Assembly: GCA_964017155.1 (NCBI GenBank)
Contig: OZ024865.1
Location: forward strand, 20,871,402-20,935,401
Length of the DNA: 64,000 nt
Direction of reading: 5' to 3'
From: Oasisia sp. SBJ-2009
Lineage: Eukaryota > Annelida > Polychaeta > Sabellida > Siboglinidae
Program-made: the position numbers and the translations under genes
Shown: positions 1,355 to 62,620 of the stretch, in pieces
Numbering within the stretch: the stretch's first letter is position 1
How the letters are laid out: each line of letters starts with the position of its first letter
The notes under the pieces: model-generated
Told to the model about the DNA's origin: nothing
Seen by the model: the letters and a program-made list of their open reading frames with translations, nothing else
The model's database searches: none

Positions 1355-4300
1355 CAGTAACATTTTTACGTAACGTCATCAGTTGTGAACATGATCTTCA
1401 GCAGATGGGTCAAAATGTGGCACATGTCTAAACATTTGCTCCAGAATAAGTTTATTTTTACTGTTCAATTGAATTCATGAAAAGTATGTTTCATAATTAT
1501 ACTTGTACTGACTTGCCTGTGTGACCATGTAAATGTCATGTGACAGGTGCGGGTCAGGACTAAGTGGAGAGGCTCTCACTGACCAGGGACATGTGTGGAT
1601 TGGAGTAGACATCAGTAGCAGCATGCTTGGTATGATACCAAAACTAGCACATTCGTTTTTAAATCTAAGTTCAATATAGGCTAACATCTAGAATGAACTC
1701 TGCAACATGGTAAAATTATATGAAAAAATTCAAAACTTATTTGTTTGCAATTGCATTCCTAACTTATACGTTTGCTCTTAAGTTTTTTACATTTTTTACA
1801 AGTTTGTATATAAAGTTGTAAGCATAAATTATTATGTAATTTACACAGTATTGGTTAATCAATTGTACTTTGATTATTTTATAAATGTATTGATATGCCT
1901 TTTTATATAAGTATTAGCTTTTTTCAAAAAGCATCATTCTGAAAGTACAAATGGACAGATGAATACAACCATTACAAAATAATTAATAAATATGAGGGAG
2001 GCAGAGAGAGGGACGTGATCCTGTGTCTGTCCTGTAGATGTGGTCTTGGAGAGGGAGGTAGAGTGAAGGACATGATCCTGTGTCTGTCCTGTAGATGTGG
2101 TCCTAGAGAGGGAGGTAGAGTGAAGGACATGATCCTGTGTCTGTCCTGTAGATGTGGCCCTGGAGAGGGAGGTAGAAAGAGGGACATGATCCTGTGTCTG
2201 TCCTGTAGATGTGGCCCTGGAGAGGGAGGTAGAGAGAGGGACATGATCCTGTGTCTGTCCTGTAGATGTGGCCCTAGAGAGGGAGGTAGAGAGAGGGACA
2301 TGATCCTGTGTCTGTCCTGTAGATGTGGCCCTAGAGAGGGAGGTAGAGAGAGGGACATGATCGTGTGTCTGTCCTGTAGATGTGGCCCTAGAGAGGGAGG
2401 TAGAGAGAGGGACATGATCCTGTGTCTGTCCTGTAGATGTGGCCCTAGAGAGGGAGGTAGAGAGAGGGACATGATCCTGTGTCTGTCCTGTAGATGTGGC
2501 CCTAGAGAGGGAGGTAGAGAGAGGGACATGATCCTGTGTCTGTCCTGTAGATGTGGTCCTAGAGAGGGAGGTAGAGAGAGGGACATGATCCTGTGTCTGT
2601 CCTGTAAATGTGGCCCTAGAGAGGGAGGTAGAGAGAGGGAGTTGATCGTGTGTCTGTCCTGTAGATGTGGCCCTGGAGAGGGAGATAGAGAGAGGGAGTT
2701 GATCCTGTGTCTGTCCTGTAGATGTGGCCCTGGAGAGGGAGATAGAGAGAGGGAGTTGATCCTGTGTCTGTCCTGTAGATGTGGCCCTGGAGAGGGAGGT
2801 AGAGAGAGGGACTTGATCGTGTGTCTGTCCTGTAGATGTGGCCCTGGAGAGGGAGATAGAGAGAGGGAGTTGATCCTGTGTCTGTCCTGTAGATGTGGCC
2901 CTGGAGAGGGAGATAGAGAGAGGGACATGATCCTGTGTCTGTCCTGTAGATGTGGCCCTGGAGAGGGAGGTAGAGAGAGGGACTTGATCGTGTGTCTGTC
3001 CTGTAGATGTGGCCCTAGAGAGGGAGGTAGAGAGAGGGACTTGATCCTGTGTCTGTCCTGTAGATGTGGCCTCAGAGAGGGAGGTAGAGAGAGGGACTTG
3101 ATCGTGTGTCTGTCCTGTAGATGTGGCCCTAGAGAGGGAGGTAGAGAGAGGGACTTGATCCTGTGTCTGTCCTGTAGATGTGGCCCTAGAGAGGGAGGTA
3201 GAGAGAGGGACATGATCCTGTGTCTGTCCTGTAGATGTGGCCCTAGAGAGGGAGGTAGAGAGAGGGACTTGATCGTGTGTCTGTCCTGTAGATGTGGCCC
3301 TAGAGAGGGAAGTGGAGGGAGACGTGATCCTTGGAGACATGGGAGAAGGAATGGCGTTCCGACCAGGAACCTTTGATGGAGTTATCAGGTGAGAATTTGT
3401 CGTCTCTTATTAAAAAGTAGCCATTGTTTTAGTTCAGACAGTTTTTTCCTAAGCAATATGTTGGGGGAAGACTAATGAATATTTTCTGGGCAAAGGGATT
3501 CTTTGGGACATGAAAGAGATTCTTTTGCATCCAGAATTATAACGAAAGGGGATTCTTAAAAAATATAAAATTGTAATGTAATTTTGAGAGAAGGGGGCAG
3601 AGCGTAATGTCATCCCAGCAACCCTGACATTCTAGAGTCATGTGGAACATCAGTGGAGGTCTGCAAGACAAACCTATATGCTACTTATAAAGTTTACCTT
3701 GTTGAATGTTGGCCATTGAAACAAGTTCATGTTGTTGCCTCACTTGCCTGTTGTCTTGCAGTATTTCTGCCCTCCAGTGGCTGTGCAATGCAGACAAGTC
3801 CTACCACAACCCTCCCAAGCGACTCTACAAGTTCTTCTCCACTCTCTACTCGTCCATGGTAAGATTGCTCTCAAATATCTCTATATCCTCACTCATTATA
3901 TATCTTATTTTAATGAAATGCCATGTGTTATGAAGTATTTAACACTTTACATAAACACCATGACACTCTCGCAGACACGTGTAGATGTTTAAAATCTTGA
4001 TGATTGGAGACCGTGTGAAGGTGGTCATGTCCATCAATAGGCTCTAGTCTTAACATTGTAGAGTTGCTAAATAATATTTGTATTGCAATGTTTTTGGCTT
4101 GAGTGACATGAGCATGTTGTGTCACCAGTTACTTCCTGTTGCCAAGTCCAAGACACATGGGCTGTTTCCCCTTAAATGTTTTCTGCTTGTGAATGGTTGC
4201 TGTGAGTGCTAAGTTACATTTTATGCAGGAGAGGGACATGTATGTATATTTAGGAAAAACTAAATATTTTATGTCAAATTTTTGGGGTTATAGATTAATA

Positions 4301-5038: not shown

Positions 5039-8000
5039 ACTTCACTAACCATTTCATTGCCTGCAACAGGAGCTCTGGACACAAACCAGAATTGTTAAGC
5101 ATGACATCATGAACTCAGATGCACAACAGTCAATATCAGAGAATGTGACATGTCTTTTTGGACTGAGGGACATGAATCAGTATGAAACAGTAACGGAAAA
5201 CAAGTCTCTGATCCTCCAAAGAAGAGTCTAATATCTTACTTATCAATTATACTTTAGTTTCTATATGCAGTCAGTGTGCAGCTGTTTGGTATGTCTGTGT
5301 TTCTGATTCTAGCTAGAGCTGATCACACGCCAGTCAATGAAGGCAGGATTCACCGGCGGTCTTGTTGTTGACTTCCCAAACAGTACCAAGGCCAAGAAGT
5401 AAGATTTGTTGCAGTCTGAATTTATCACGCTGTACATTCACACACATGCAGTGTTTAGCAAGGCTGCCATCCAGGACAAAAGCCCAGCTGACACATGGAG
5501 TAGGAAGCTTTTAAATGATGAAAGGTCCAACTGGTGGTGTTTGTCTGATGTGTAAACAGCACTTTTAAAATATTTTTCGATTCTGGTATTAAAAGTAGTT
5601 ATTCCAAGTATTGGAGCATAATGTTTCATTCAGCAGCAATGTTTTGCAAGAAGAAATATACTTGAAACGTATCAGGGCAAAACACAATGTATTTATTTTC
5701 TTAGTTCTGATATCAAGTCACTTTTGTGTTTCACCAGCAGAGTTTCAATAACAACTTGTTAGTGAAGTTGGTGTATCAGAGAGAGCAGTAACAGCCGCTA
5801 CATTTATTTTTTATATAAAATGTGGAAGTGAAAATATATTATTTTGTAAAAAATCCGGTATAGTCATATTCCTGTAGTTGCACATGCAGCAAGCCAATGC
5901 CGATTGGCAGAACATGAATATATTATGTTTCGAAAACTAAGGTTATTTATTGCATATTTGCATAAATAAGATAGGATCCTAGCTTAACATATTTAAGCAA
6001 ATTATTTGCCCTGATTTCGATGAAATTTCAGAGATATGACTTATCGTAGTTTCCCCTGAAATCCATCCCTTTCTCTATCTAATCTACTAGGTCATTTCCC
6101 TGGTACTGGCAGTGGTTTGTTTACAATAGCAATATATTACAATAGCAGTGATAATGAAGATAACATGTGTTGATCTGAGCTTGTGTTTTTGATGTGTTAC
6201 TTTTGTCCTCAGGATGTGTCATTTCAAAAATACGTGTTCATTTAATTTGCTGGGTGTGTTTTTGTAGTTCACATGATGGTCTTTGTTCGTAGAGTGTATT
6301 TCTATTCATTGAATGTTTTTCTTTATTTGTTAGTTAACTTAACATAACATTGGTTGGTTGTCGTTGCAGAATGTTCCTGTGTTTGTTTACGGGCGGTGCC
6401 CCCCAACAGTTGCCCTGTGGACTAGGCACTCCTGGGGCAAACCCTCAACAGACTCAGGCGGCCTTCACATCAAAACGGTTGGTTCACTTGTAAATACGCC
6501 AGTAACTGATGGTGTCTTCAAGACGTACCAATTAGGTTCACAGATCCACTTAGTTTACTGTCGCCCTGTTCTTCTGGAGTCAAATCAAAAACAGATTTTA
6601 CACAGATAGCAAATATGGGGTGGATAATATAGAAAAATCCAACCAAACCTGATGCCCCCAATTTTGTCTAAACCTGTTGACTGAAATATTGTGCATTCTA
6701 TAAAAGATTCACTTTTTGCATGCAATTAGCATATGTTTATCATAAAAATCTAGTGTCGTAACATTCACTGTACAAACATACTCTTCCACTATCCTGTTTT
6801 ACCATGAAAGATCTTTTTGTCAGAGCAAACTTGTGCTTTAATTTTGTATATTAAGACATGTTATAAATGTGTTGTCAATGTAACCTGCACCGGAGAAGAA
6901 ACAGTGAAACAAGTCTTGTCTCAGTCTCAATCAACAGCTTATAGAATAGTCTCATCACTCATGTTTGCAGAGAGCGAATGCAGAAGATTCGGGGGAAGCC
7001 ACCAAAGAAAAGTAGGGAATGGATTTTAGAAAAGAAGGAACGGAGACGGAGACAAGGAAAGTAAGTAGAAAATCCACCAAGTGGTGCTGTGTTGCATCTA
7101 CCACACCAGGTGGTGCCACCTAGATAGCCAGATACGATTTCTGACGTGTTATAGCGAAATTATGCATATAAAAAATTAATTTGTCACACCATTGGAAAGA
7201 AGATTTATTAAACTTTCCAACGGTATACAAATCATGGACCTAGCTTATAGACAGACAAAGTTACGTATGCAGATGTTTTAGTACATTGTCATTCTAAATT
7301 GCTTTTATATCTCCATTTGATGCATTCAAACCACACCTTAAGGACAGGGTCAAACTGTTTATTATAATATAAACTGAATATTTAGCAATGTTTTATAGCG
7401 GTGACCAGATTTATTGTCTCCCATTTTCAGTTAGCGAGTGTGCATTGTGCCTGCGCTCGCAGAGTTGAGCCACTGAGTGGACCATCACCCACGTCTGACA
7501 GCAGGACATCTTTGCTTACAGATACCTCTTATTCCATGGGGAAGTGTGGGCTGACACCTTCGACTCTTGGTTTATAGGGAAGTGCGGGCTGACACCTTTG
7601 TCTCTTGTTTTACAGGGAAGTGCGGGCTGACACCTTTGTCTCTTGTTTTACAGGGAAGTGCGGGCTGACACCTTTGTCTCTTGTTTTACAGGGAAGTGCG
7701 GGCTGACACCTTTGTCTCTTGTTTTACAGGGAAGTGCGGGCTGACACCTTTGTCTCTTGTTTTACAGGGAAGTGCGGGCTGACACCTTTGTCTCTTGTTT
7801 TACAGGGAAGTGCGGGCTGACACCTTTGTCTCTTGTTTTACAGGGAAGTGCGGGCTGACACCTTTGTCTCTTGTTTTACAGGGAAGTGCGGGCTGACACC
7901 TTTGTCTCTTGTTTTACAGGGAAGTGCGGGCTGACACCTTTGTCTCTTGTTTTACAGGGAAGTGCGGGCTGACACCTTTGTCTCTTGGTTTATAGGGAAG

Positions 8001-11000
8001 TGCGGCAGGGGTCGAAATAGCGGGTGTCCGGCAGTCCGAGGACTGCCAGAAATTCGGTCCGACTGCCGAAGATGGCGTTAGTGGCAGTCCGATGGACACC
8101 CGCCAAATTCGGGAATATTTTTACATTTTTTTATTCACAATGTCGATCTTCGACAACGGCAACGACCCCTATTGGCATACATGTTATGTCTCCCGCATTC
8201 GGCGGGAGACTCCCGCAAATACAGATAATTTCCCCAATCATCCACGCGGGAGAAACAATCTCTTTCATCGTAACGTAAGTGAACAAATTTGCGGGAGCGT
8301 CCGGCTTATTCCAGTTTTCAGTCCACCCAAAACAAACAAATTGTACGTAATTTAGCTTACTGAGTGCGGATAATTGGTTTATTTCTGGCAGGGGCATTGT
8401 CTCAAATGTTTTTCAGAGTCACCTCACAATGAATAGCAATGCCAGTTAACTAATTGCAATCGAGTCTGAGACTGAGCTAATGTCACAGTCACAGACACCG
8501 CCGGGCACTCGCCGGCGCTGACAACGATTTGAACAATGACCTGAATTGGAATTATTTAAATCACGCCTTACTGTGATGACTGAACATTAAAAACAGTCTA
8601 ATAAATATCTAAGTACAAGGCCTACATCTTGCATGGGCAAGGCTGACATTGTTTATCAGCTTTATAGAATCGCCGCAAGCCGCTTCGATACCGTATTATC
8701 GCCCACTGTGTACGTCCCGTCTTGTAGACCAAAGTGAAATCCGTTTACATCTTAATAATAATAATAATAATAATAGTAACTTCTTTTGCGCCAATATCCT
8801 CGAAAATCAAGCTCAGTGGCGCGACAAAACCAGGGGATTAATCAATCTCATAATCGAAAGCAATGCGTGAGTCGTCAACGGATGGATGGAAAAGCTAGGA
8901 GGCTAAGGAGGATAGGCAGCATTAAAGAGATAGGTTTTTAGATGTCGGCGGAATGAAACTATATTACCTTGTGATTTAACACTGGCAGGAAGCGAATTCC
9001 ACACCGTTGGTGCGGCAACCGAGAAAGCTCGGGTCCCGGCTTTCGTTTTCACCCGAGGGATGTGAAGAGGGTTACTACTGGTTGAGCGTAGCTGTCTGGA
9101 ATTTCTTGTTGGAGTTAGCATTGAATTTAGATATGCTGGTTGTGTAGATGAGAGTGCTTGATAGGCTATTGTACACATTTTGAAAATGATGCGATAGTGC
9201 ACAGGTAGCCAATGCAGTGATTTTAGAAGCGGCACTGAGCGAGAAAAACGTGGAGAACGCGTGACTACCCTTGCTAAACAATTTTGGACACGCTGAAGTT
9301 TGGCTATGTCCTTGTTTGCGGTATTGTAAAGGAGGGAATTGCAGTAGTCGAGTCTGCTGCTTACTAGAGCTGTGGCGATGGTTTTAGCAACGGAAAGTGA
9401 TAAAAACCGGCGGATACGGCGAAGATCACGGATATGGTAAAAACAGCAACGGCATGTTTTCGAGATATGTTTTTTGAAATTGAAGTTTTCATCAAACGTT
9501 ACTCCGAGATTTAAAACTGAGGTGGCTGGTGTGATACTCTGACTCAGAATATGTGTCGGGAAAAAGCCGTTGAGTTTTGCCCGCTGCGTTGAGGTACCAA
9601 TGATGAGAAATTCAGTCTTATCTACATTTAGTTTTAATTTACTATTTTTCATCCAGAGGGAGACATCTTGGAGACAATCCCTGAGCTGGTTTAAGGAGCG
9701 ACAAGTATCTGGTGTGGTCAGAGAAACATAGATTTGTGTGTCATCTGCATAAAGGTGATGATCCAGGTTATGACTCTGGATAACTGAGCTTAATGGTGTT
9801 GTGTACAGAGTGAAAAGCAACGGACCCAAAACAGAACCCTGGGGGACACCACAAGAGGTGGGCAGCATGTCTGAGAAGCAGTTACCTATTTTAATGGCTT
9901 GCCGTCTGTCAGTAAGGTATGAAGTAAACCAGCTCAAGGCTGTGCCAGATATCCCGTACCACGTTGATAAGCGTGTAATGAGAATGTCGTGGTCAATGGT
10001 GTCGAAAGCGGCGGATAGGTCAAGCAGGGTCAGTGCAGTAACTTTGCCATTATCAATGTTAAGGTTTATGTCATTGTGTACTTTTAAAAGAGCAGATAAA
10101 TAATGTCCATCCATACATCTACACCACATGTGCATGTTTGTAAAAGTATGTACTTTTGCTAAGCGCTTTATTATTTGAGTATATTTGACATGTAAATGGA
10201 AAAAACATCGTTAACAGAAGAAAGCATGGTTATTTAAATGGACTCCATATTTAAATGTCTCCATTCGTGTCTACGTTACCATGGCTCAGTCCAGCTCATA
10301 AAAAAAATGATAAAATAATGAATTCCATATTCAAGTTTTACATGTAAAGATTATGTTAGTTGTGTAATAAAATAGTATGTAAATGCTGATGCTTTTCATG
10401 CAAGGGATTCTTTGCAACCTATGAAACATATCAGAAGCTGAACAAATATGCCTATGTTAGGCCTATACCTAGAACACAAGAAGTAAATTACTGAACATTA
10501 TAATATTTATTGTTCTATAACAAGCCTTATTTTTAATTCACGAGGGCCAAACAGCAACACATAACTTTTTATGAGATTAGCAGGGAATTTATTATATTTG
10601 TGGTATTATGACTAGTGATAATAAAACCTTTATGTTAATATTGAATATCAGCCTGGATGTAGGCAGTGATAGCGAGAGTGACAGTGGTGACAGTTATCTG
10701 GCGACAGCTCTTGCCAGATTGGGAGAGTGAGATGAACGAGCTTGTTGATGTATATGTTTTTGGTGTTTATGTATATATAATTATGTTTCCTGTGTAGGTG
10801 TATATAATCATGTTTCTGGTGTTGGTGTATATATGTTGTTGGTGCGGGGGGGGGGGTATGAATGTGTTTGATGTTCGCCTTTTGTATTAAATTTGTTCGA
10901 TTTTAAAATATTGTGTTTGTCGTGTTATTTTGCTTAAATTTTGGGGGCCATTTTCAGGACAGCCAGATATCTCTCAGGACTGCCAGATTTCTCAACTAGG

Positions 11001-12655
11001 CAGTCCTGCTGACTGCCAGATATTTTGGAGTTATTTCTACCCCTGAGTGCGGGCTGACACCTTTGTCTCTTGTTTTACAGGGAAGTGCGGGCTGACACCT
11101 TTGTCTCTTGTTTTACAGGGAAGTGCGGGCTGACACCTTTGTCTCTTGTTTTACAGGGAAGTGCGGGCTGACACCTTTGTCTCTTGGTTTATAGGGAAGT
11201 GCGGGCTGACACCTTTGTCTCTTGTTTTACAGGGAAGTGCGGGCTGACACCTTTGTCTCTTGTTTTACAGGGAAGTGCGGGCTGACACCTTTGTCTCTTG
11301 TTTTACAGGGAAGTGCGGGCTGACACCTTTGTCTCTTGGTTTATAGGGAAGTGCGGGCTGACACCTTTGTCTCTTGTTTTACAGGGAAGTGCGGGCTGAC
11401 ACCTTTGTCTCTTGGTTTATAGGGAAGTGCGGGCTGACACCTTTGTCTCTTGTTTTACAGGGAAGTGCGGGCTGACACCTTTGTCTCTTGTTTTACAGGG
11501 AAGTGCGGGCTGACACCTTTGTCTCTTGTTTTACAGGGAAGTGCGGGCTGACACCTTTGTCTCTTGTTTTACAGGGAAGTGCGGGCTGACACCTTTGTCT
11601 CTTGTTTTACAGGGAAGTGCGGGCTGACACCTTTGTCTCTTGTTTTACAGGGAAGTGCGGGCTGACACCTTTGTCTCTTGTTTTACAGGGAAGTGCGGGC
11701 TGACACCTTTGTCTCTTGTTTTACAGGGAAGTGCGGGCTGACACCTTTGTCTCTTGTTTTACAGGGAAGTGCGGGCTGACACCTTTGTCTCTTGTTTTAC
11801 AGGGAAGTGCGGGCTGACACCTTTGTCTCTTGTTTTACAGGGAAGTGCGGGCTGACACCTTTGTCTCTTGTTTTACAGGGAAGTGCGGGCTGACACCTTT
11901 GTCTCTTGTTTTACAGGGAAGTGCGGGCTGACACCTTTGTCTCTTGGTTTATAGGGAAGTGCGGGCTGACACCTTTGTCTCTTGTTTTACAGGGAAGTGC
12001 GGGCTGACACCTTTGTCTCTTGTTTTACAGGGAAGTGCGGGCTGACACCTTTGTCTCTTGGTTTATAGGGAAGTGCGGGCTGACACCTTTGTCTCTTGTT
12101 TTACAGGGAAGTGCGGGCTGACACCTTTGTCTCTTGTTTTACAGGGAAGTGCGGGCTGACACCTTTGTCTCTTGTTTTACAGGGAAGTGCGGGCTGACAC
12201 CTTTGTCTCTTGTTTTACAGGGAAGTGCGGGCTGACACCTTTGTCTCTTGTTTTACAGGGAAGTGCGGGCTGACACCTTTGTCTCTTGGTTTATAGGGAA
12301 GTGCGGGCTGACACCTTTGTCTCTTGTTTTACAGGGAAGTGCGGGCTGACACCTTTGTCTCTTGTTTTATAGGGAAGTGCGGGCTGACACCTTTGTCTCT
12401 TGTTTTACAGGGAAGTGCGGGCTGACACCTTTGTCTCTTGTTTTACAGGGAAGTGCGGGCTGACACCTTTGTCTCTTGGTTTATAGGGAAGTGCGGGCTG
12501 ACACCTTTGTCTCTTGTTTTACAGGGAAGTGCGGGCTGACACCTTTGTCTCTTGTTTTACAGGGAAGTGCGGGCTGACACCTTTGTCTCTTGTTTTACAG
12601 GGAAGTGCGTGCTAACACAAAGTACACCGGCCGTCGGAGACCAACAAGTTTCTGA
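773..12655 (+). CDS. BUD23: BUD23, 18S rRNA (guanine-N7)-methyltransferase, 5'-partial, 9 exons
   Basis: SAM-dependent methyltransferase that, with TRMT112, makes m7G in 18S rRNA during small-subunit maturation in the nucleus (family knowledge; human WBSCR22/BUD23). I read exons 773-868, 1547-1629, 3292-3388, 3762-3858, 4912-4962, 5313-5398, 6370-6477, 6971-7060 and 12601-12655. They join in one open frame of 253 residues ending in TGA. Visible landmarks in order are [23 protein letters not shown] motif I DVGCGSGLSG split across exons, [49 protein letters not shown] and the basic tail [17 protein letters not shown] then [14 protein letters not shown]. Human BUD23 has about 281 residues, so about 30 N-terminal ones are missing, most likely encoded left of the window. 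All introns are GT-AG; the donors at 4963 (gttagc) and 6478 (gttggt) are weak. The odd feature is that the acceptors at 3291 and 12600 are the last copies of tandem arrays of splice acceptors. The gene converges on the zinc-finger gene at 14978. Confidence 0.93.
1287..1353. repeat. (ACGC)n / (AC)n compound microsatellite
   Basis: Seven or so ACGC units followed by an uninterrupted (AC)n run in a BUD23 intron. Simple-sequence DNA with no coding content. Confidence 0.95.
1994..3313 (+). repeat. 57-bp minisatellite made of a 3' splice site plus exon start (BUD23 array 1)
   Basis: Each 57-bp unit contains ctgtgtctgtcctgtag, then atgtggccctagagaggg, then a stretch related to the following exon sequence. 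It is therefore a polypyrimidine tract, an AG and the first ~40 bases of the BUD23 exon that truly begins at 3292. The AG recurs at 2037 and then every 57 bp to 3291, giving 23 acceptors in 22 exact periods. The first partial unit (about 1994-2020) keeps the exon-like gacgtgatc; inner units read gacatgatc or gacttgatc. In the exon's reading phase these create a TGA within about 13 codons in each upstream unit, so only the last acceptor is productive. The period is 19 codons, which is why long open frames run through the array on both strands; they are artefacts. Confidence 0.95.
3389..6969. other. BUD23 introns between exons 3292 and 6971
   Basis: Apart from the listed exons, this stretch is ordinary AT-rich intron sequence. 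The only repeat I see is the short (CAA)n at 5006-5039. There are no additional genes, and no open frame here resembles a protein I recognise. Confidence 0.6.
5006..5039. repeat. (CAA)n microsatellite
   Basis: About eleven CAA units in the BUD23 intron between exons 4912-4962 and 5313-5398. Confidence 0.9.
7540..8005 (+). repeat. 38-bp splice-acceptor minisatellite, left part (BUD23 array 2)
   Basis: The 38-bp unit reads ggaagtgcgggctgacac followed by ctttgtctcttgttttacag. That is the start of the last BUD23 exon (ggaagtgcgtgctaacac at 12601) joined to a pyrimidine tract and AG. This part holds 12 AG sites (7577, then every 38 bp to 7995). The outer units vary most: the first has aagtgtggg and cttcgactc, and some have ttggtttatag in place of ttgttttacag. 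It is cut at 8005 by the hAT insertion. Confidence 0.95.
8753..10113 (-). mobile_element. 5'-truncated non-LTR retrotransposon (CR1/L2-like) inside the hAT element
   Basis: Minus-strand LINE fragment flanked by tacatct at 8746-8752 and 10114-10120, a plausible 7-bp target-site duplication. Its 3' end, at the low coordinate, is an (ATT)n tail at about 8753-8776. The 5' end is cut inside the reverse-transcriptase domain, as usual for incomplete reverse transcription. It nests in the hAT element, which nests in the BUD23 intron array. Confidence 0.85.
8903..10113 (-). pseudogene. LINE reverse transcriptase, C-terminal ~400 residues
   Basis: Uninterrupted reverse-transcriptase reading frame beginning inside the domain. 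Recognisable blocks are [16 protein letters not shown] (catalytic Asp), [30 protein letters not shown] (YADD active site), [22 protein letters not shown] and the C-terminal [23 protein letters not shown] and NSLPASVKS. These are typical of the CR1/L2 side of the Jockey group; I cannot fix the clade. The first few codons above 10113 come from hAT flank, so it has no start of its own. The absence of stops suggests a recent insertion. Confidence 0.88.
10656..10730 (+). pseudogene. hAT transposase C-terminal tail remnant
   Basis: 25 codons ending in TGA encode an acidic stretch ([16 protein letters not shown]) followed by TALARLGE. The minus-strand element at 52896-52980 encodes a closely similar tail (DSDSEEGDSYLAAVLARLAE), which confirms that the two elements are relatives and that this one keeps only the end of its transposase gene. 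Confidence 0.65.
11046..12600 (+). repeat. 38-bp splice-acceptor minisatellite, right part (BUD23 array 2)
   Basis: After a partial unit at 11046-11080, forty exact 38-bp periods run from 11081 to 12600, giving 41 AG sites here and about 53 in the whole array. Variants alternate between ttgttttacag and ttggtttatag. The last AG at 12600 is the true acceptor of the final BUD23 exon. If an upstream acceptor is used, the frame reads [12 protein letters not shown] and stays open for about 29 codons until TGA (ggc tga), because 38 is not a multiple of 3. Confidence 0.95.
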
Positions 12656-13000: not shown

Positions 13001-13006
13001 AATAAA
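13001..13006 (+). terminator. Candidate poly(A) signal of BUD23
   Basis: AATAAA 346 bases after the BUD23 stop codon. Further AATAAA hexamers occur at 13771 and 13844. I cannot tell which is used. Confidence 0.5.
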
Positions 13007-18361: not shown

Positions 18362-20627
18362 GTAAGTAGACAATGACACACTCAGTTGTCATAATTACAT
18401 TGTGTCTGGCAGTGGAATCAACCAAATAAAACTGACCACTGAATATGTTGAGCCTATGAATAGTGTTGAGCAAAAATAAATTAAATGCAATTATTATTAT
18501 AAATATTATAAATTACTGTCATAAAAATCTAAACCTATTGTCCACAATAATTGCAACAAAATATTTGGATATCATTATTAATTTTTCCTTCCCATTGTGG
18601 ATAATATTGACTGTTTTAATGCTGTTAATGTATTTGTACTAAGAATCTTCTGAAAAACATGTAGGTCAATAGTTTCACTGACCCACCCAGAAAAGTAATA
18701 AAATCCCATCATTTCTTTCTCCACAAAATTAATTTAAACCTCAAATATCTAAAATAACTACCAGTATGTCAGAAATATTGAACAATCTAAAACTTATTGA
18801 CTGTATGTACCCAGGTATACAGTGAGTCAAGTGACCCTCGGGACAAAAGTAAAGTAGCTACATGGAACGTAACTCAACATAACACCATACAAGCCATCTT
18901 TGAGCACACCAGGTGATGTCATATAGTGATTACACAGCAGCATAACTGGTAGAAAAATAGCAATGACTGATTCACTAATAAGTAATCACCATGCTTATCC
19001 GTCTAAATGAAACTCAGTTGCAGCATGCTGCTTGCAGTTGCATATTGTACACATGTCAGTATCAATCAATCAGTTTTATTTTAACATCACAGGTCTCTAA
19101 GTAGAATCGCGTGCTTACATGTCTACCTTCAGGGCTGCTTACCAGTATAGCTGGCGAAAGGGGTTGCCATTACCTGCCAAGTTAGTTATCTTTTCCAATA
19201 CACTGAACACCTGCATCCATGACAGGATTATTTTACAGACAAACGTGTGAGAACTTAATTGTCCACAATTGGTGGAAGACAAACAAAAGATAGTCACAAG
19301 ATAGCAATGCCACAGAATCGAGGACAATGAAGTAATACTGAGTTCTTATACTCTGATATTATCCAATGCTCTACTCTCTGGCTGACCTGTTCAATTAATC
19401 ATCATCTCAACTTCTAGTTCTCGGAAGCATTTAGCCACACTGCAAATAACACACAAAGACTATTTATACACGACTATATCCATCAGTGTCTATAGCGACT
19501 CATTCTGTATACATGTTTATAACATAACTAAAACATGTAGCAGCTGTGACATCTCTGACACTCTCAAGTTGTAACACTGATTACAACAGGGAGTGAGGAC
19601 TAGTAGACCTACTGTGACATAAGGGTCTGGTTCTATTTCACCGACACTTTGTGAGTTCCTTATTGTAGATTAACTGGTCTCTAGTACCAATGGCACCTGT
19701 AGGAAATTTATTTAAGTGATACAACTGGTGAAACATTAAAAACATACCTTGTTTAATTGTACTATAGTAAATTCCAGTAACAAAGACACGCAAATATGAT
19801 ATTAGCATTCTGATCATATCGGAGTCAGTATACAGGTCACCCATGTGAAAGGCCCTAAAACACCTTGTGTTATCAGCATGACCCACATTCCCAGAAACTA
19901 TTTATTCCCCTGACTGGAACTGGGAAGGAAGCTGTGTGCCTGGTGCCTCCTACTTCAGACTGACCTACCTCGCCAGATGTTCCCTGTCAACTGGAGTGTC
20001 CGGCAGTTAGTCTTAGCAAACAGACAGCTGCATGAGGCTATAAGTAAACTGCTGTAACAGCAAGTCTAGTGTCTTCTCCCAACATTATTCTGTTATGCTA
20101 TAGAAGCATATTAACTGGACCATAAAACATTTTTTTGGAAGTCTTCAAGAACTGGTCAAGCTACACTGAAGCTACCAATGACAAAGACATCATTGAGCCA
20201 CTTGTGTAATTAATACTGGTCCATTTGATATGTCACTGCCAGTTGTGCCAATCACCAATGGAAGTCATTGATATGGGCTCACACACTCGGAAGTTTCAAC
20301 TTTTAGTTAATCTAGTGCATGAGCAGCCAGTACCTCTACATTCACCCTTTTATCAGTTTAATTACCAGTCTTGGCTGGTGGGTGAACTCGCACTGCCTGG
20401 AAGTAGAGAAATTGGCTAAAAATACAGCATCAGTCTTACTGACAACATAACATGTCACTTGTGTTCATCCCTTTGTTGGTCTGGGTGAAGGTGACATGAC
20501 TCTACTTCTTGGGGTCTGTGTTCCCTCTGTCACTGCAATCATCTTCACCCTGTTCCACCCCAACCCCTTCACCCCCTATTCAATTCACATGCCCCGCCCA
20601 ATGTAACCAACTTTTTCCTGGAGCACA
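18362..20627. other. Non-coding stretch upstream of the zinc-finger gene
   Basis: AT-rich sequence without open frames I can support, RNA genes or clear repeats. It probably includes the 5' UTR intron of the zinc-finger gene. Confidence 0.45.
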
Positions 20628-21787
20628 CTACTAAGTCTGTGTGACAGAGTGATGGTAGAGAGTAGAGAACAGTATCAACACTACTAAGTCTATGTGACAG
20701 AGAGTTGGTAGAGAGTAGAGAACAGTATCAACACTACTAAGTCTGTGTGACAGAGTGATGGTAGAGAGTAGAGAACAGTATCAACACTACTAAGTCTATG
20801 TGACAGAGAGTTGGTAGAGAGTAGAGAACAGTATCAACACTACTAAGTCTATGTGACAGAGAGTTGGTAGAGAGTAGAGAGCAGTATCAACACTACTAAG
20901 TCTATGTGACAGAGAGTTGGTAGAGAGTAGAGAACAGTATCAACACTACTAAGTCTGTGTGACAGAGAGTTGGTAGAGAGTAGAGAACAGTATCAACACT
21001 ACTAAGTCTATGTGACAGAGAGTTGGTAGAGAGTAGAGAGCAGTATCAACACTACTAAGTCTATGTGACAGAGAGTTGGTAGAGAGTAGAGAACAGTATC
21101 AACACTACTAAGTCTGTGTGACAGAGAGTTGGTAGAGAGTAGAGAACAGTATCAACACTACTAAGTCTATGTGACAGAGAGTTGGTAGAGAGTAGAGAAC
21201 AGTATCAACACTACTAAGTCTGTGTGACAGAGAGTTGGTAGAGAGTAGAGAACAGTATCAACACTACTAAGTCTATGTGACAGAGAGTTGGTAGAGAGTA
21301 GAGAGCAGTATCAACACTACTAAGTCTATGTGACAGAGAGTTGGTAGAGAGTAGAGAACAGTATCAACACTACTAAGTCTATGTGACAGAGAGTTGGTAG
21401 AGAGTAGAGAGCAGTATCAACACTACTAAGTCTATGTGACAGAGAGTTGGTAGAGAGTAGAGAACAGTATCAACACTACTAAGTCTATGTGACAGAGAGT
21501 TGGTAGAGAGTAGAGAGCAGTATCAACACTACTAAGTCTATGTGACAGAGAGTTGGTAGAGAGTAGAGAACAGTATCAACACTACTAAGTCTGTGTGACA
21601 GAGAGTTGGTAGAGAGTAGAGAACAGTATCAACACTACTAAGTCTATGTGACAGAGAGTTGGTAGAGAGTAGAGAACAGTATCAACACTACTAAGTCTAT
21701 GTGACAGAGAGTTGGTAGAGAGTAGAGAACAGTATCAACACTACTAAGTCTATGTGACAGAGAGTTGGTAGAGAGTAGAGAGCAGTA
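20628..21787. repeat. 53-bp minisatellite, about 22 copies
   Basis: Head-to-tail copies of a 53-bp unit beginning actactaagtctatgtgac and continuing agagagttggtagagagtag. Variant positions (tctatg/tctgtg; gagaac/gagagc) form interspersed patterns that suggest unequal exchange or conversion of multi-unit blocks. Short open frames across it are artefacts. Confidence 0.95.
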
Positions 21788-22488
21788 TGAGTGTACAGAG
21801 GATGTGTTGCCATCCACTCGTCTACCAGGCGACCTCCCTGTGGCCAGGCCTAATATGGTAGTCACACAAGACTTACATCAGACAGGGTCGCAGGCACTGC
21901 TGTTGGTCAATGCATCACTGTCATACCTGTACTTGCATACTTTGGCTTGTCTGCTCATGGGGAACATCAAGGCTATCAACAAAAGTTCCCCACATCCTGT
22001 TTGGGGCAATCTTCCCAGGTGTTTACTTACTGCCTTCCCACCTACTGGGAGTTTGGACAGTTCTTCCCCACTGGTCAATTCCTCACCACCACAATGCCAC
22101 AGGGTTGACTGGGTTGTTAGCTCCAGAAGGTGTTCCTGACAGTCTTTTAAGAGACTGTGGTTGATGCATTTATTAACACATTTGTTACATGCCAGAGTTG
22201 TTAGCCTGTGTAAACCCCCCACCCTTGAGGACCACTTCTCCAGCCTGGTGGTGACATGGCTCCTACCCACAGGATCAGGGATTGTAAGGAACTCAAACAA
22301 CTGCATAATGACAAGTCCTTTGTGAAAATTATAACTTTCTTATCTATAATCTACTTGGCATCTTTACTAATGTAACATCATGTCCTCAAGTAGTTCTATC
22401 TTTCTTCACTGAGAACACTTCTATCAGTACTTTCATAACCATTCAATATTTTAAACATGTTTAGCTTCTATTAACATGCTAATACTAC
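21788..22488. other. Unassigned unique sequence
   Basis: Open frames of 84-142 codons overlap here on both strands (for example 21878-22306 minus), but none resembles a known family and they conflict with each other. I do not support a gene. Confidence 0.4.
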
Positions 22489-40197: not shown

Positions 40198-43100
40198 TTA
40201 GTCGAGGAATGCTTTATTCAGCTTCAGCAGAAGTTGGTCCTCGAATGTGCTGTCACCTATGCAGGCACGTCTTGGCGTAAATATCAGGCCTGCCGCACTG
40301 AACAGACGCTCGCAGGCTGCGCTAGCAAACAGTGCCTTCAGCTGCGGCCAGGCATCCAGTGCTGACAGGTGCCTTTGGGGTGCGAGCCTACCTGCAGACA
40401 GGTACTGGTCCAGCTGTTCCGTTGTTGTTTGTGTCCTCCGGTGGCAAGGGGCGAAGAACTGGTCCTCGTCGTCCTCTTCACTGACGGAGAGGTCTCTATC
40501 CGGCTGCGCTTCCTCACACAACTTCTGCTGGATGTACTGCAGCCCTACAACCAGAATACCAGAAATAAATGGACAAACTCAAATCAAACGAAACTATGAA
40601 AAAAGTGTAGCCACAATTCTCCATTCTTTCTCCTAAACAAACAAACAAACAAACAAACAAACAAATAACCATGCCCTACAAAAGAAAACATGTTATTCTG
40701 TTTGCATTCACAAACCATCAACACAAATACGTACGTGTTTATTTTCTTAACCATAGACCAATGTTTAGAATGTTCACATACCTGACTCTAGCACGGCTGC
40801 GTCCGACGTCCAAGTCGACACAAATGTGGGGTGCAGTATGGCTGCAGCAATGGCCTGTTTGTCTCCAAATGTGCTGCAGAATCTCTTGCGAATGCCGGCC
40901 AGCAGGGCGTCAATCAGTGGGATGCAGGCCGTGGCCTTCTCCCGTCTCTTTTGCAGTTTCTCCAGCAGTGCTGACAGGGTTGGCAGGAGGTAGCCCAGGT
41001 AGGCCTTCTTCTCCGACTGAAGGATATTCAGGGCCTGCGCGACATGCTTCATGGTTATGGAGTACCCTTCTAAGAACCCAAGCTCGGCTGATTTCAACCT
41101 GAAAACAACATCATGATATTACACACATGGTCACAAACCTACAACCAGGATTTTACCTGTCTGCAACACACATCAGTAGATGCTCTGTAAATCTGGAAGA
41201 AAGGTTAAGCATAAATATATGATATAATAATAATAATCTCTATTTTTACACTGGTATCCAGAGTATAATTGTGTGTACACACTACAAAGTCATCAATAAA
41301 ACAATATAAATCATGTATACACAAATAAAAATTATTGTAAAGAAAATGACTTAAATAAAATGTATAATTTAAACAAATTAATATTCATAATAACACGATA
41401 TTAAATAAATAATTCTTAAATTCATATAGCAGCCAACAGTCAAATAACATTAAAATAAGATTTGACACTTTTTGAAATGTTAAGGCACGATTTAAATATG
41501 TTCTGGCACATGTTAGTGTGCACATAAAAGAGTAATAGATCAAGCTAAATAATTAAAGTTTGTAAATTAATACACTGCATAGTAGTTGTGGTCTTTGAGA
41601 ATGTACTCACTTCGCAATGTCAAATTCATTGCACACCGTGTGCAATGCCTCCTCCCCTTTCTCCTTTACAATGCGGACAAGACGCTCCACCGCCATGAAT
41701 ACCGAATTCCACCTTGTTGGCACAGGGCGAATGACCATCAGGCCGCAGGTGTCCTGAATGGTTTCAACTGCCAGGGCTGATCTTCCGGCCTTGTTCCAGA
41801 TCGCCTGGCACTTTCCAAATGTCGACCTGGACAACTTCTTGTATGCGGTGTTGTCTTCCGCATGCTGTGCGTCAGTGGTGCATACCAGGTTCAGCGTGTG
41901 GCAGGCACATCTCTGATGACCCGGCAGCCGGTATTCGATGAAGTCATCGGCATCCAGCACACTGGCCATGTCCTCGAATTGAACGCCATCACCTAGACAA
42001 TTCCGAATACTTTGTTTTACCAAAAAGTTAAAAGGAATTACAGTAAATAACTTTCTGCATTAAATAGCATAGTAAATTGTCGTTGAGTACACTGTCAACG
42101 TCCTCAAAGTAGGCGCCACCGTGATGAGTTCAGAGTACTTACCCAAATTGAATTCAAAGGTACTTTAAAATACTTGTGTCATCACATGGCTATGTCATAA
42201 ATGGTATGTAAAAAATCAAAACTGATTTCACAATAATAATCTTCAACATATTTAGCCAGTATTTATTCATTAGGGTCAAATCAAAAGTTCTACAGCATGC
42301 ATGTAATTACCCACCTAAACACAGCTCTAACTCGCTCTGGTTATCTTCAGTCGTCGGGCTGACACCAAACACCGAAAACGCCTTGACGAAATTTGAGCCA
42401 TTGTCGGTTGTTGTCCTGGTCACCTTCTGGCGTATGCCGTACGCGGAGTGAATATCTTCAAGTGCTCCAGCTAACACATCAAAGGTGTGTGAGCCTCGCA
42501 GACGACGACATGCTAGTGCGGCAGACCTTGAATAAAATATGGTATTCATATAACTTTTTTTAGTTGCTAGCAACATAATTATGTAAAAATATAATTAATT
42601 GTTTCATACAAAATAAGTTGATGTACTAGTAAATTGAAAACAATTGTAGTACTACATCCATAATATGGCAGGATACATTAGACATAGAGCGACAGAATCA
42701 CATAATAGTCTATGGTGCTTAACCAATAACCAATGTGTCTATTCATTTAGACCATTAAACCATTAGTAAATGTTAATTGAGACAACAACTAATACTTGTA
42801 CATAGAATTCAACAGCTGAAATACTATTTAAATAATGGCGTTACACTTAAGATATAACTTTACAGGCTGCATATAACAATGTTATAGACCAAAAGTACAT
42901 TCCTAATATGATAATAATGCAAGTGTAATATAATATAGGCGGAATAAACATAATAAAGTAATTTAAACTAACAGTAACATTTTAACATACCTTCTCTCTA
43001 GCGTGTCAGTGTCAATCCAGTGTGCTGTCACACCGATGTATGCTCGACCTCGAGCACTCCAGCAGTCGGTGGTCGTCGCAACAAATTGCAGCGGGCGCAT

Positions 43101-53504: not shown

Positions 53505-53899
53505 CACTTCCTGTACAGCCTGTCTGTGAGCACTTCCTGTACAGCCTGTCTGTGAGCACTTCCTGTACAGCCTGTCTGTGAGCACTTCCTGTACAGCCTG
53601 TCTGTGAGCACTTCCTGTACAGCCTGTCTGTGAGCACTTCCTGTACAGCCTGTCTGTGAGCACTTCCTGCACAGCCTGTCTGTGAGCACTTCCTGTACAG
53701 CCTGTCTGTGAGCACTTCCTGTACAGCCTGTCTGTGAGCACTTCCTGTACAGCCTGTCTGTGAGCACTTCCTGTACAGCCTGTCTGTGAGCACTTCCTGT
53801 ACAGCCTGTCTGTGGGCACTTCCTGTACAGCCTGTCTGTGGGCACTTCCTGTACAGCCTGTCTGTGGGCACTTCCTGTACAGCCTGTCTGTGAGCACTG
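53505..53899. repeat. 26-bp minisatellite, about 15 copies
   Basis: Unit cttcctgtacagcctgtctg followed by tgagca, with tgggca variants confined to the right side. Since 26 is not a multiple of 3, the open frames across it cycle through three readings of the same unit and are artefacts. Confidence 0.95.
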
Positions 53900-54812: not shown

Positions 54813-55141
54813 TATCTTCTGACAAAAGTACGCGTCACCACACTGGTTGGTCCTACCTGACCTGTACCCCACTTCAATGTCAAACGAAGCAAGTTGAGCA
54901 ACCCACATGAGCTCAGTCGCCTCAGATTGGCAGTTTTCAAGTGTGCCAGTGGATTATGATCGGTATACACAATGCTGTGTGATCCCAGAGTGTAAGCTTT
55001 GAACTTTTCTGACACAGCCCATTTGAGTGCTAACAATTCGAGCTTGAAGCTGGAAAACTCCAGGTAATTGTGTTCTGGACCCCTCAGAACGTACTGTTCA
55101 CGAGTCCCTGGGGCATTCTTGTGGACTCGTACAAGCCCCAT
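54812..55141 (-). pseudogene. Ty3/Gypsy RNase H fragment
   Basis: SSFKLELLALKWAVSEKF and SIVYTDHNPLAHLKTANL are the RNase H signatures that follow the Gypsy reverse transcriptase. After LRRLSS the reading frame departs from the family (the usual EQRW is lost), so a frameshift is present. No reverse transcriptase lies upstream. Confidence 0.8.
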
Positions 55142-55462
55142 GGTACACAGAACGCAGTTTTAGACACCGAATCTGGGTGCATTGTCACCTGGAAATAACC
55201 ATGGGGGAGATCGAGTGAGGAAAAGAAGCATGCTAAATACATGCAAGGTGCATCTCATAAATACACAAGTCCAAAAGCAACTTATTGACAACAATTACCT
55301 GCCCACAGCCAGATGTCAGGTAACATGAATCAGTGATAGCAGAAGTGTTGGTTGTCACTATAATGTGAATACAATACATTGTTTTAAATGACAGTTACTT
55401 TGAATAGTACATGAAATATCTCATTTCACAATGTAAACATAGTGGGCAATAATACATAGGTG

Positions 55463-61914: not shown

Positions 61915-62620
61915 TCACAGTTTCACTCTTCCTACACTTTTGTAGCCTTCCTCCAAAATTACTATTACATTCATGGGTCGCTGGTCACCTTGGTTCATTT
62001 CTCCAAGGAAAGCGACATCAAACTCAGCATTTTTTACAACAGCGTCAACCATTTTCACTGATCGACACATTGTACTAAAATGTCCCAACTTTTTGCACTT
62101 GAAACAGGCTGTGTCACATGCTGGACACATCACTTTCTGGTGAGCTGGCAATTTACCACAATGGTCACACTTCCTCATTACGACTGACTTACTACTTTGA
62201 ACCTTCGTCCATGTTTTTGGCTTCCTTTGGCTGTGCTTGTTAGGCTTTCTTGAGCCTTGCACTACATCAACATTGCTACTGCCCTGTGTAGCAAAGTTGC
62301 TTATCAAACGTGACTGTTCTTTGTCACTGTCTTATCTTGATGAGCTATGTCAATAGCTTTTCTTACTCTCAAAGTGCCATCCATTTGCACTTCAGTGATA
62401 ACAATGTATCAAAGATCCCAACGACAGTGCGATTTTAAATAATTTGTTCCTTCAGGGCACTATATTCGCAAAGTTCAACCAATCAGTACAGCAAGGTGAT
62501 CAACTTTCTACACTTTCACCTTCCTCCTGTGAATGTCTATTGAATTTAGCACGTTCAAAAATAGCATTGTGCCTAACTACAAAGTGTCCATCAAACTTGT
62601 TTTAACCACATAATAATCCA
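61915..62620 (-). pseudogene. Ty3/Gypsy gag with zinc knuckles (Gypsy-A), broken
   Basis: Upstream part reads FVVRHNAIFERAKFNRHSQE then breaks with stops. The downstream frame 62307-61915 encodes KCDHCGKLPAHQKVMCPACD and CFKCKKLGHFSTMC, two CCHC-type knuckles, followed by FLGEMNQGDQRPMN at the start of the protease region before a stop. Nucleocapsid-like function in the family; defective here. Confidence 0.8.

Follow-up and report, generated by a model that had tools for sequence, protein, structure and literature searches.

The window analysed here, a stretch of 64,000 nucleotides from the siboglinid annelid Oasisia sp. SBJ-2009 (assembly GCA_964017155.1, contig OZ024865.1, positions 20,871,402 to 20,935,401 of the forward strand), contains exons of the gene for BUD23, the 18S rRNA guanine-N7 methyltransferase that serves ribosome making. 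The reading frame stays open across the junctions of the nine exons in the window, and the protein that it encodes is identified as BUD23 by full-length sequence matches both to the human protein (PDB 6g4w chain q; query residues 1-251 of 253, E 9.9e-101) and to a protein of Ridgeia piscesae (99% identity over 92% of the query); a protein of Lamellibrachia satsuma has 85% identity (94% in the alignment). These matches place the window in a deep-sea vestimentiferan tubeworm close to Ridgeia. Two further exons, the first two of the gene, are present in pieces, MASGHRPEHLAPPEV and FYNETEARKYTA, at positions 5926-5970 and 6063-6098 of a neighbouring stretch (L009), about 4 kb ahead of the window's first base. 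A search of the whole assembly with BUD23 yielded 7 matches, all at this locus, and no second BUD23 copy was found in this whole-genome search.

The final intron of the gene lies, on the plus strand, between the penultimate coding exon (6971-7060), which has a protein match and ends at the donor AAA/GTAAGT (the slash marks the splice junction here and below), and the last coding exon (12601-12655), which is conserved in relatives. Conservation of the protein points to the AG at 12599-12600, the last of the 53 acceptors described below, as the one that is used, and the tail reached through it comprises 18 residues that resemble the human REVRPDTQYTGRKR and the corresponding end of the Lamellibrachia protein. 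The first AATAAA past the stop codon, a putative poly(A) signal, is located at 13001-13006, 401 nt from this acceptor. The deposited BUD23 of Ridgeia piscesae (NP493_239g06022; for the genome paper see PMC9921365) ends in QGK and is without the last exon. In our window QGK stands before the donor GTAAGT, and a TAA is in frame there; the Ridgeia gene model has therefore probably been read past this donor, at the cost of the last exon, as judged from the DNA of the window rather than from that of Ridgeia itself.

The last exon is preceded by a tandem array whose 38-bp unit, made up of 18 nt of exon start and 20 nt of intron end, spans the final 3' splice site of BUD23. The array consists of a left block at 7539-8005 (TRF period 38, 12.3 copies, score 885) and a right block at 11046-12618 (TRF period 38, 41.4 copies, score 3027), both on the plus strand, and the right block extends 18 nt into the true last exon. 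Acceptors of the form AG/GGAAGTG number 53, with 12 to the left and 41 to the right of an insert at 8006-11045. Their spacing is an unbroken 38 bp inside each block and every inner unit has its AG; the sole unit that lacks one is an incomplete copy on the left margin of the array (from 7539), in which ATG stands where AG is expected. The first AG is found at 7576-7577, the first of the right block ends at 11080, and the last is that at 12599-12600. The initial annotation had given this count, its division by a transposon and these three positions (7577, 11080 and 12600), and had described the repeat as the second acceptor-spanning minisatellite in BUD23; our analyses, in which both arrays were found and the protein matched BUD23, agree with it on all of these points. 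The insert, about 3 kb in size, is a transposon; it is flanked by a 7-bp repeat (AGTGCGG), has a terminal inverted repeat starting CAGGGGT, and contains a reverse-transcriptase fragment in antisense orientation at 8906-10210 (PF00078, 1.4e-24).

The intronic 20-mer CTTTGTCTCTTGTTTTACAG is present in 43 of the 53 units, and the remaining 10 deviate from it by 2 bases (8 units), 4 bases (1 unit) or 1 base (1 unit). When whole units are compared, 42 of the 53 are identical copies of one type (type A), and the variants are interspersed irregularly. The two boundary units, viz. that at the real exon (type F) and that at the left edge (type C), occur in 1 copy each, unlike the homogenised inner units. 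A 25-base piece of the unit has 51 matches in the assembly of 764,102,534 bases, all of them inside this array, and the same piece read backwards as a control has 0 matches in the 764-Mb assembly. The exonic 18 nt of the unit equal the start of the real exon at 16 bases and differ at 2, the units encoding EVRADT and the real last exon EVRANT. In the alignment of relatives this position is occupied by D in 14 of 15 sequences and by N in one (Tubulanus), so that an earlier form of the last exon may have been retained in the units.

A first array in the same gene, located at 1994-3321 on the plus strand, is composed of 57-bp units (23.3 copies by TRF) with 22 TGTAG acceptors and one TGTAA. Its unit combines 15 nt of intron end with a part of about 42 nt that stems from the exon start and has 2 bases more than the exon itself. 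The exon that follows (3292-3388, plus strand) has an open frame from its own acceptor only, which is the last of the 22, and the other 21 allow 9 or 12 codons to be read before a stop, within an internal exon. In both BUD23 arrays the conserved protein is restored solely by the last, exon-contiguous acceptor.

The window also contains arrays and frames outside BUD23. A 26-bp array of 15 copies (53505-53898) is open in all three minus-strand frames and ends, on that strand, at the donor-like sequence GAA/GTGAGT, so that it is possibly a donor-side counterpart. A 53-bp array of 22 copies (20625-21788), the unit of which contains TACTAAG and GTGACAG, has an open frame next to it; the frames beside it have no Pfam match, and the one that was compared with PDB had no match there. 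Three minus-strand frames are transposon-derived, viz. a hAT dimerisation region (40201-40578; 20.4 bits, below the cut-off of 21.4), an RNase H-like domain of a retroelement (54815-55159; 6.2e-8), and a zinc knuckle (61915-62331; 21.1 bits, cut-off 20.8).

Arrays of this kind, known as mirage minisatellites, have units that span an exon-intron boundary and retain its splice signals, and for those of amphioxus Canestro et al. in 2002 are reportedly also to be named. The passages on these repeats in PMC3087553 place them in the amphioxus globin genes BflGb6 (two haplotypes, one with 6 units and the other with 3, each unit measuring 150-160 bp) and BflGb9 (a 157-bp duplicate) and in Adh3 (units of 10-72 bp); the authors report that lengths vary and that their RT-PCR shows undisturbed splicing (PMC3087553). 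The definition in these passages applies equally in BUD23, and on its structure alone the array at the last exon is a mirage minisatellite: its unit joins 18 exonic to 20 intronic nt, its 53 AG acceptors are retained at 38-bp spacing, and its boundary unit differs from the inner units, a trait that is reported for mirages and is not strictly defining. It differs from the amphioxus mirages as described there (PMC3087553), which are those of a chordate, in that an annelid is concerned, with 53 and 22 acceptors in units of 38 and 57 bp, two arrays in one gene, a transposon inside one of them, and arrays at 7 of 187 kinase edges. Hence, the kind is already known, and what is new is an annelid mirage that is unusual in scale and recurrence. 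The main text of the amphioxus PGBD5 paper has no passage on minisatellites, and in the openly licensed literature we found no paper on siboglinid minisatellites and none with the phrase "mirage minisatellite", which is a weak form of absence. Introns are said to have arisen from tandem arrays and internal duplications, for which Zhuo et al. in 2007 and Gao and Lynch in 2009 are reportedly the sources; such introns likewise involve tandem exon-boundary copies with splice signals, but the BUD23 copies sit within an existing intron and no new intron is seen. NAGNAG tandem acceptors, which are a few bases apart and use a common branch point, similarly present several equivalent AGs that compete for one exon, whereas the BUD23 units are 38 bp apart and every one of them brings a branch-point-like motif and a tract of its own. 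The internal tandem repeats of human segmental duplications also lie in genes and alter exon-intron structure (PMC2812944).

Each 38-bp unit resembles a complete 3' splice site, since CTGAC, a pyrimidine tract and AG follow one another in this order. In the last repeat unit, the CTGAC of the real acceptor (12574-12578, plus strand) belongs to the part that stems from the exon, with its A 23 nt upstream of the final base of the intron and no other AG between. By the general consensus this motif resembles a branch point, and it may act as one; CTRAY in the range of 18-35 nt is found in 4.4% of base-shuffled units, and YTNAY is absent 15-45 nt before the real acceptor in 3 of the 5 kinase acceptor mirages described below. 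The decoys are near-identical to the real site: 41 of the 52 upstream acceptors equal it from -38 to +9, so the site's own letters cannot separate them from it, and 32 of the 52 do so from -60 to +9, while from -38 to +10 none of the 52 is identical. With decoys of this identity, any preference must stem from where the copy lies, how long the exon becomes, the poly(A) side or more distant sequence.

The same architecture is present at other exons of the assembly. Our sample was drawn from 139 exon matches to PF00069 (protein kinases), for which 116 stretches were examined; some of these overlap (L040/L104, L082/L088, and L095/L097) or share one gene (L016/L059 and L087/L090), L057 covers two matches and the intron between them, with an "exon middle" that is not a single exon, and matches with internal stops, which probably cross introns, were kept. 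An exon edge was counted when its 22-mer had at least 2 extra copies. Arrays were thus found at 7 of 232 edges, viz. 5 acceptor edges (L016, L041, L060, L090, and L113) and 2 donor edges (L073 and L077), and the same 22-mer test gave 0 of 116 exon middles, a contrast that is weak by itself (Fisher P 0.10). Inside the kinase domain 7 of 187 edges have arrays, as against 22 of 187 intron points at a distance of 200 nt from the edge (nominal Fisher P 0.006, with some arrays counted at both places); arrays are therefore less common at edges than at intron points, which fits tolerance of arrays and not attraction. An attraction of minisatellites to splice sites was rejected both on this depletion and on TRF coverage (period at least 15, at least 3 copies, and at least 75% matches; stretches L010-L125), which over the 116 stretches declines towards the exon edge, being 0.10-0.14 at a distance of 200-600 nt and about 0.05 within the final 20 nt, and which is uneven, with a per-stretch mean of 0.026 in the 30 best matches and 0.109 in the other 86. 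Splice-site arrays recur at least in kinase genes, and exon edges are not hot spots for them. An alternative test with 16-mer words gave 4 acceptor and 3 donor edges of 116, missing L016 and counting L123.

Among these kinase cases, L016 (PAK-like by reading of its translation) has a 51-bp unit in 10.6 copies, the junction of L041 is present in 18 exact copies, and that of L077, ATCAAACTAGCAG/GTGGGTGGGC, in 16 copies with at most 2 mismatches. The kinase exon of L060 (G000:C5:32011623-32012975, minus strand; CDK-like by reading) has an acceptor mirage in which the 45-bp unit can be read as 15 open codons, SYTYQILQAILLLFQ; there are 12 junction copies at no more than 2 mismatches, the real one included, and the three upstream acceptors that were read would insert in-frame repeats into the kinase domain. 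The alternatives read (the last 2-3 upstream copies in the five acceptor cases and the next two donors in both donor cases) lead to a stop or a frameshift everywhere save in L060; in L073 the first alternative donor gives a frameshift, and the flagged stop lies elsewhere in the match. In all 7 kinase cases and in both BUD23 arrays the exon is joined without a break to the last of the acceptors or the first of the donors, the copy that makes the shortest exon. This regularity follows from the geometry, because the arrays lie on the intron side; it describes the outcome that splicing has to reach and is not evidence of how the choice is made.

Several other stretches are uncertain and stand outside the count of 7, viz. 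L047, L097, L109, L111, L120, and L123, in which a junction is touched or contained by an array that has few close copies or is that of a neighbouring exon, and L089 and L098, where the arrays end at the acceptor and include at most a few exonic bases. Two candidates were rejected: the array of L017 ends 77 nt before the match, and that of L134 was read as intronic, the match having overrun. A sample of DEAD-box exons (20 of 52 matches) yielded 0 confirmed cases, an outcome with a probability of 0.29 at a rate of 3%; the one donor edge flagged there was rejected on reading. For a gene that has 20 splice sites (a number that assumes 11 exons), the probability of two arrays is 0.12 at the rate of 7 in 232, and their joint presence in BUD23 is thus no surprise.

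Taken together, we consider it likely that the mirage is a by-product which this genome, rich in minisatellites, tolerates; the exon-adjacent copy would be chosen by exon definition. The first part of this reading, that the array is a by-product rather than a device, is held with high confidence, and the second, that exon definition selects the acceptor copy, is given only a slight preference. The array was probably born by a tandem duplication across the 3' splice site that joined 20 nt of intron end to 18 nt of exon start, and probably then grew by unequal exchange or slippage; the transposon split it. Since most decoys have the site's own letters, a preference must have another basis, and pairing of splice sites across the exon is the established mechanism that fits. 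On this account the last exon would pair with the nearby poly(A) signal, the copy making the shortest exon would win, and leakage to the decoys would be low or harmless. Cells thus probably ignore long rows of near-perfect decoys.

It could be supposed instead that the array was selected as a splicing booster, its tandem units raising the recruitment of U2AF and U2 for a distant last exon behind a 5.5-kb intron. Each common unit does have a full-looking 3' splice site and 42 of the 53 units are identical, but such identity is expected from recent expansion alone, arrays are rarer at edges than at points 200 nt into introns (7 versus 22 of 187), and donor edges carry them too; we regard this explanation as unlikely.

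The initial annotation had proposed that, since the frame changes with each unit, acceptor choice would generate differing C-terminal isoforms of BUD23, which would make the array a regulated switch of last-exon acceptors. Most upstream acceptors match the real one by sequence, and junction-dependent decay spares stops in the last exon, from which it would follow that transcripts with such stops escape it. However, translation of the 52 upstream joins to the penultimate exon ruled out a drift of frame along the array: the acceptors yield only 9 distinct tails, which are nearly alike for 49 of the 52 acceptors, because every join to the penultimate exon has the same phase and is followed by the same unit, read from its first base. 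These 49 near-identical tails have 25-30 residues, in keeping with the earlier estimate of a stop after about 29 codons, and their pattern includes (C/W)F(T/I) and a bracketed end (VLQGSAG); the three odd ones have 41 and 8 residues (from the acceptors flanking the transposon) and 45 residues (from the acceptor before the last). The conserved end of BUD23 is lost with all 52, and in the 57-bp array the early stops of 21 of the 22 acceptors fall in an internal exon. A switch is rated as more doubtful than a booster.

An assembly artefact, whether a copy number that is too high or too low or an array wrongly put next to the exon, is slightly less credible again. The array is known from one assembly and its copy number may be off, but the irregular interspersion of unit variants, the transposon that splits the array, the right edge that runs into real coding sequence and the equivalent architecture in other genes all argue that it is genuine. 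A dying BUD23 gene, with the array as junk, might be suspected because a single gene bears both arrays as well as a transposon, but is highly improbable given the open frame across nine window exons, the near-identity to the Ridgeia protein and the lack of another BUD23 locus in the assembly.

Returning to the tolerated by-product, its extension to vestimentiferan genomes at large, in which a few percent of the exon edges would bear splice-site arrays, with many near-identical complete sites next to the real one, and the spliceosome would nevertheless pick the copy making the shortest exon (last acceptor or first donor), is tentative and falls somewhat short of an even chance. The kinase rate of 7 in 187 suggests many loci, perhaps thousands genome-wide by extrapolation, and RNA reads from one animal could pit exon definition against scanning at many of them together. 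The choice of a splice site is usually studied by altering the letters of the site. If our interpretation is correct, these genomes would provide a natural, genome-wide demonstration of exon pairing prevailing over first-come-first-served choice. The relevance for annotation is illustrated by the Ridgeia BUD23 that is without its last exon, and the arrays would represent a standing source of material for changes in introns and exons.
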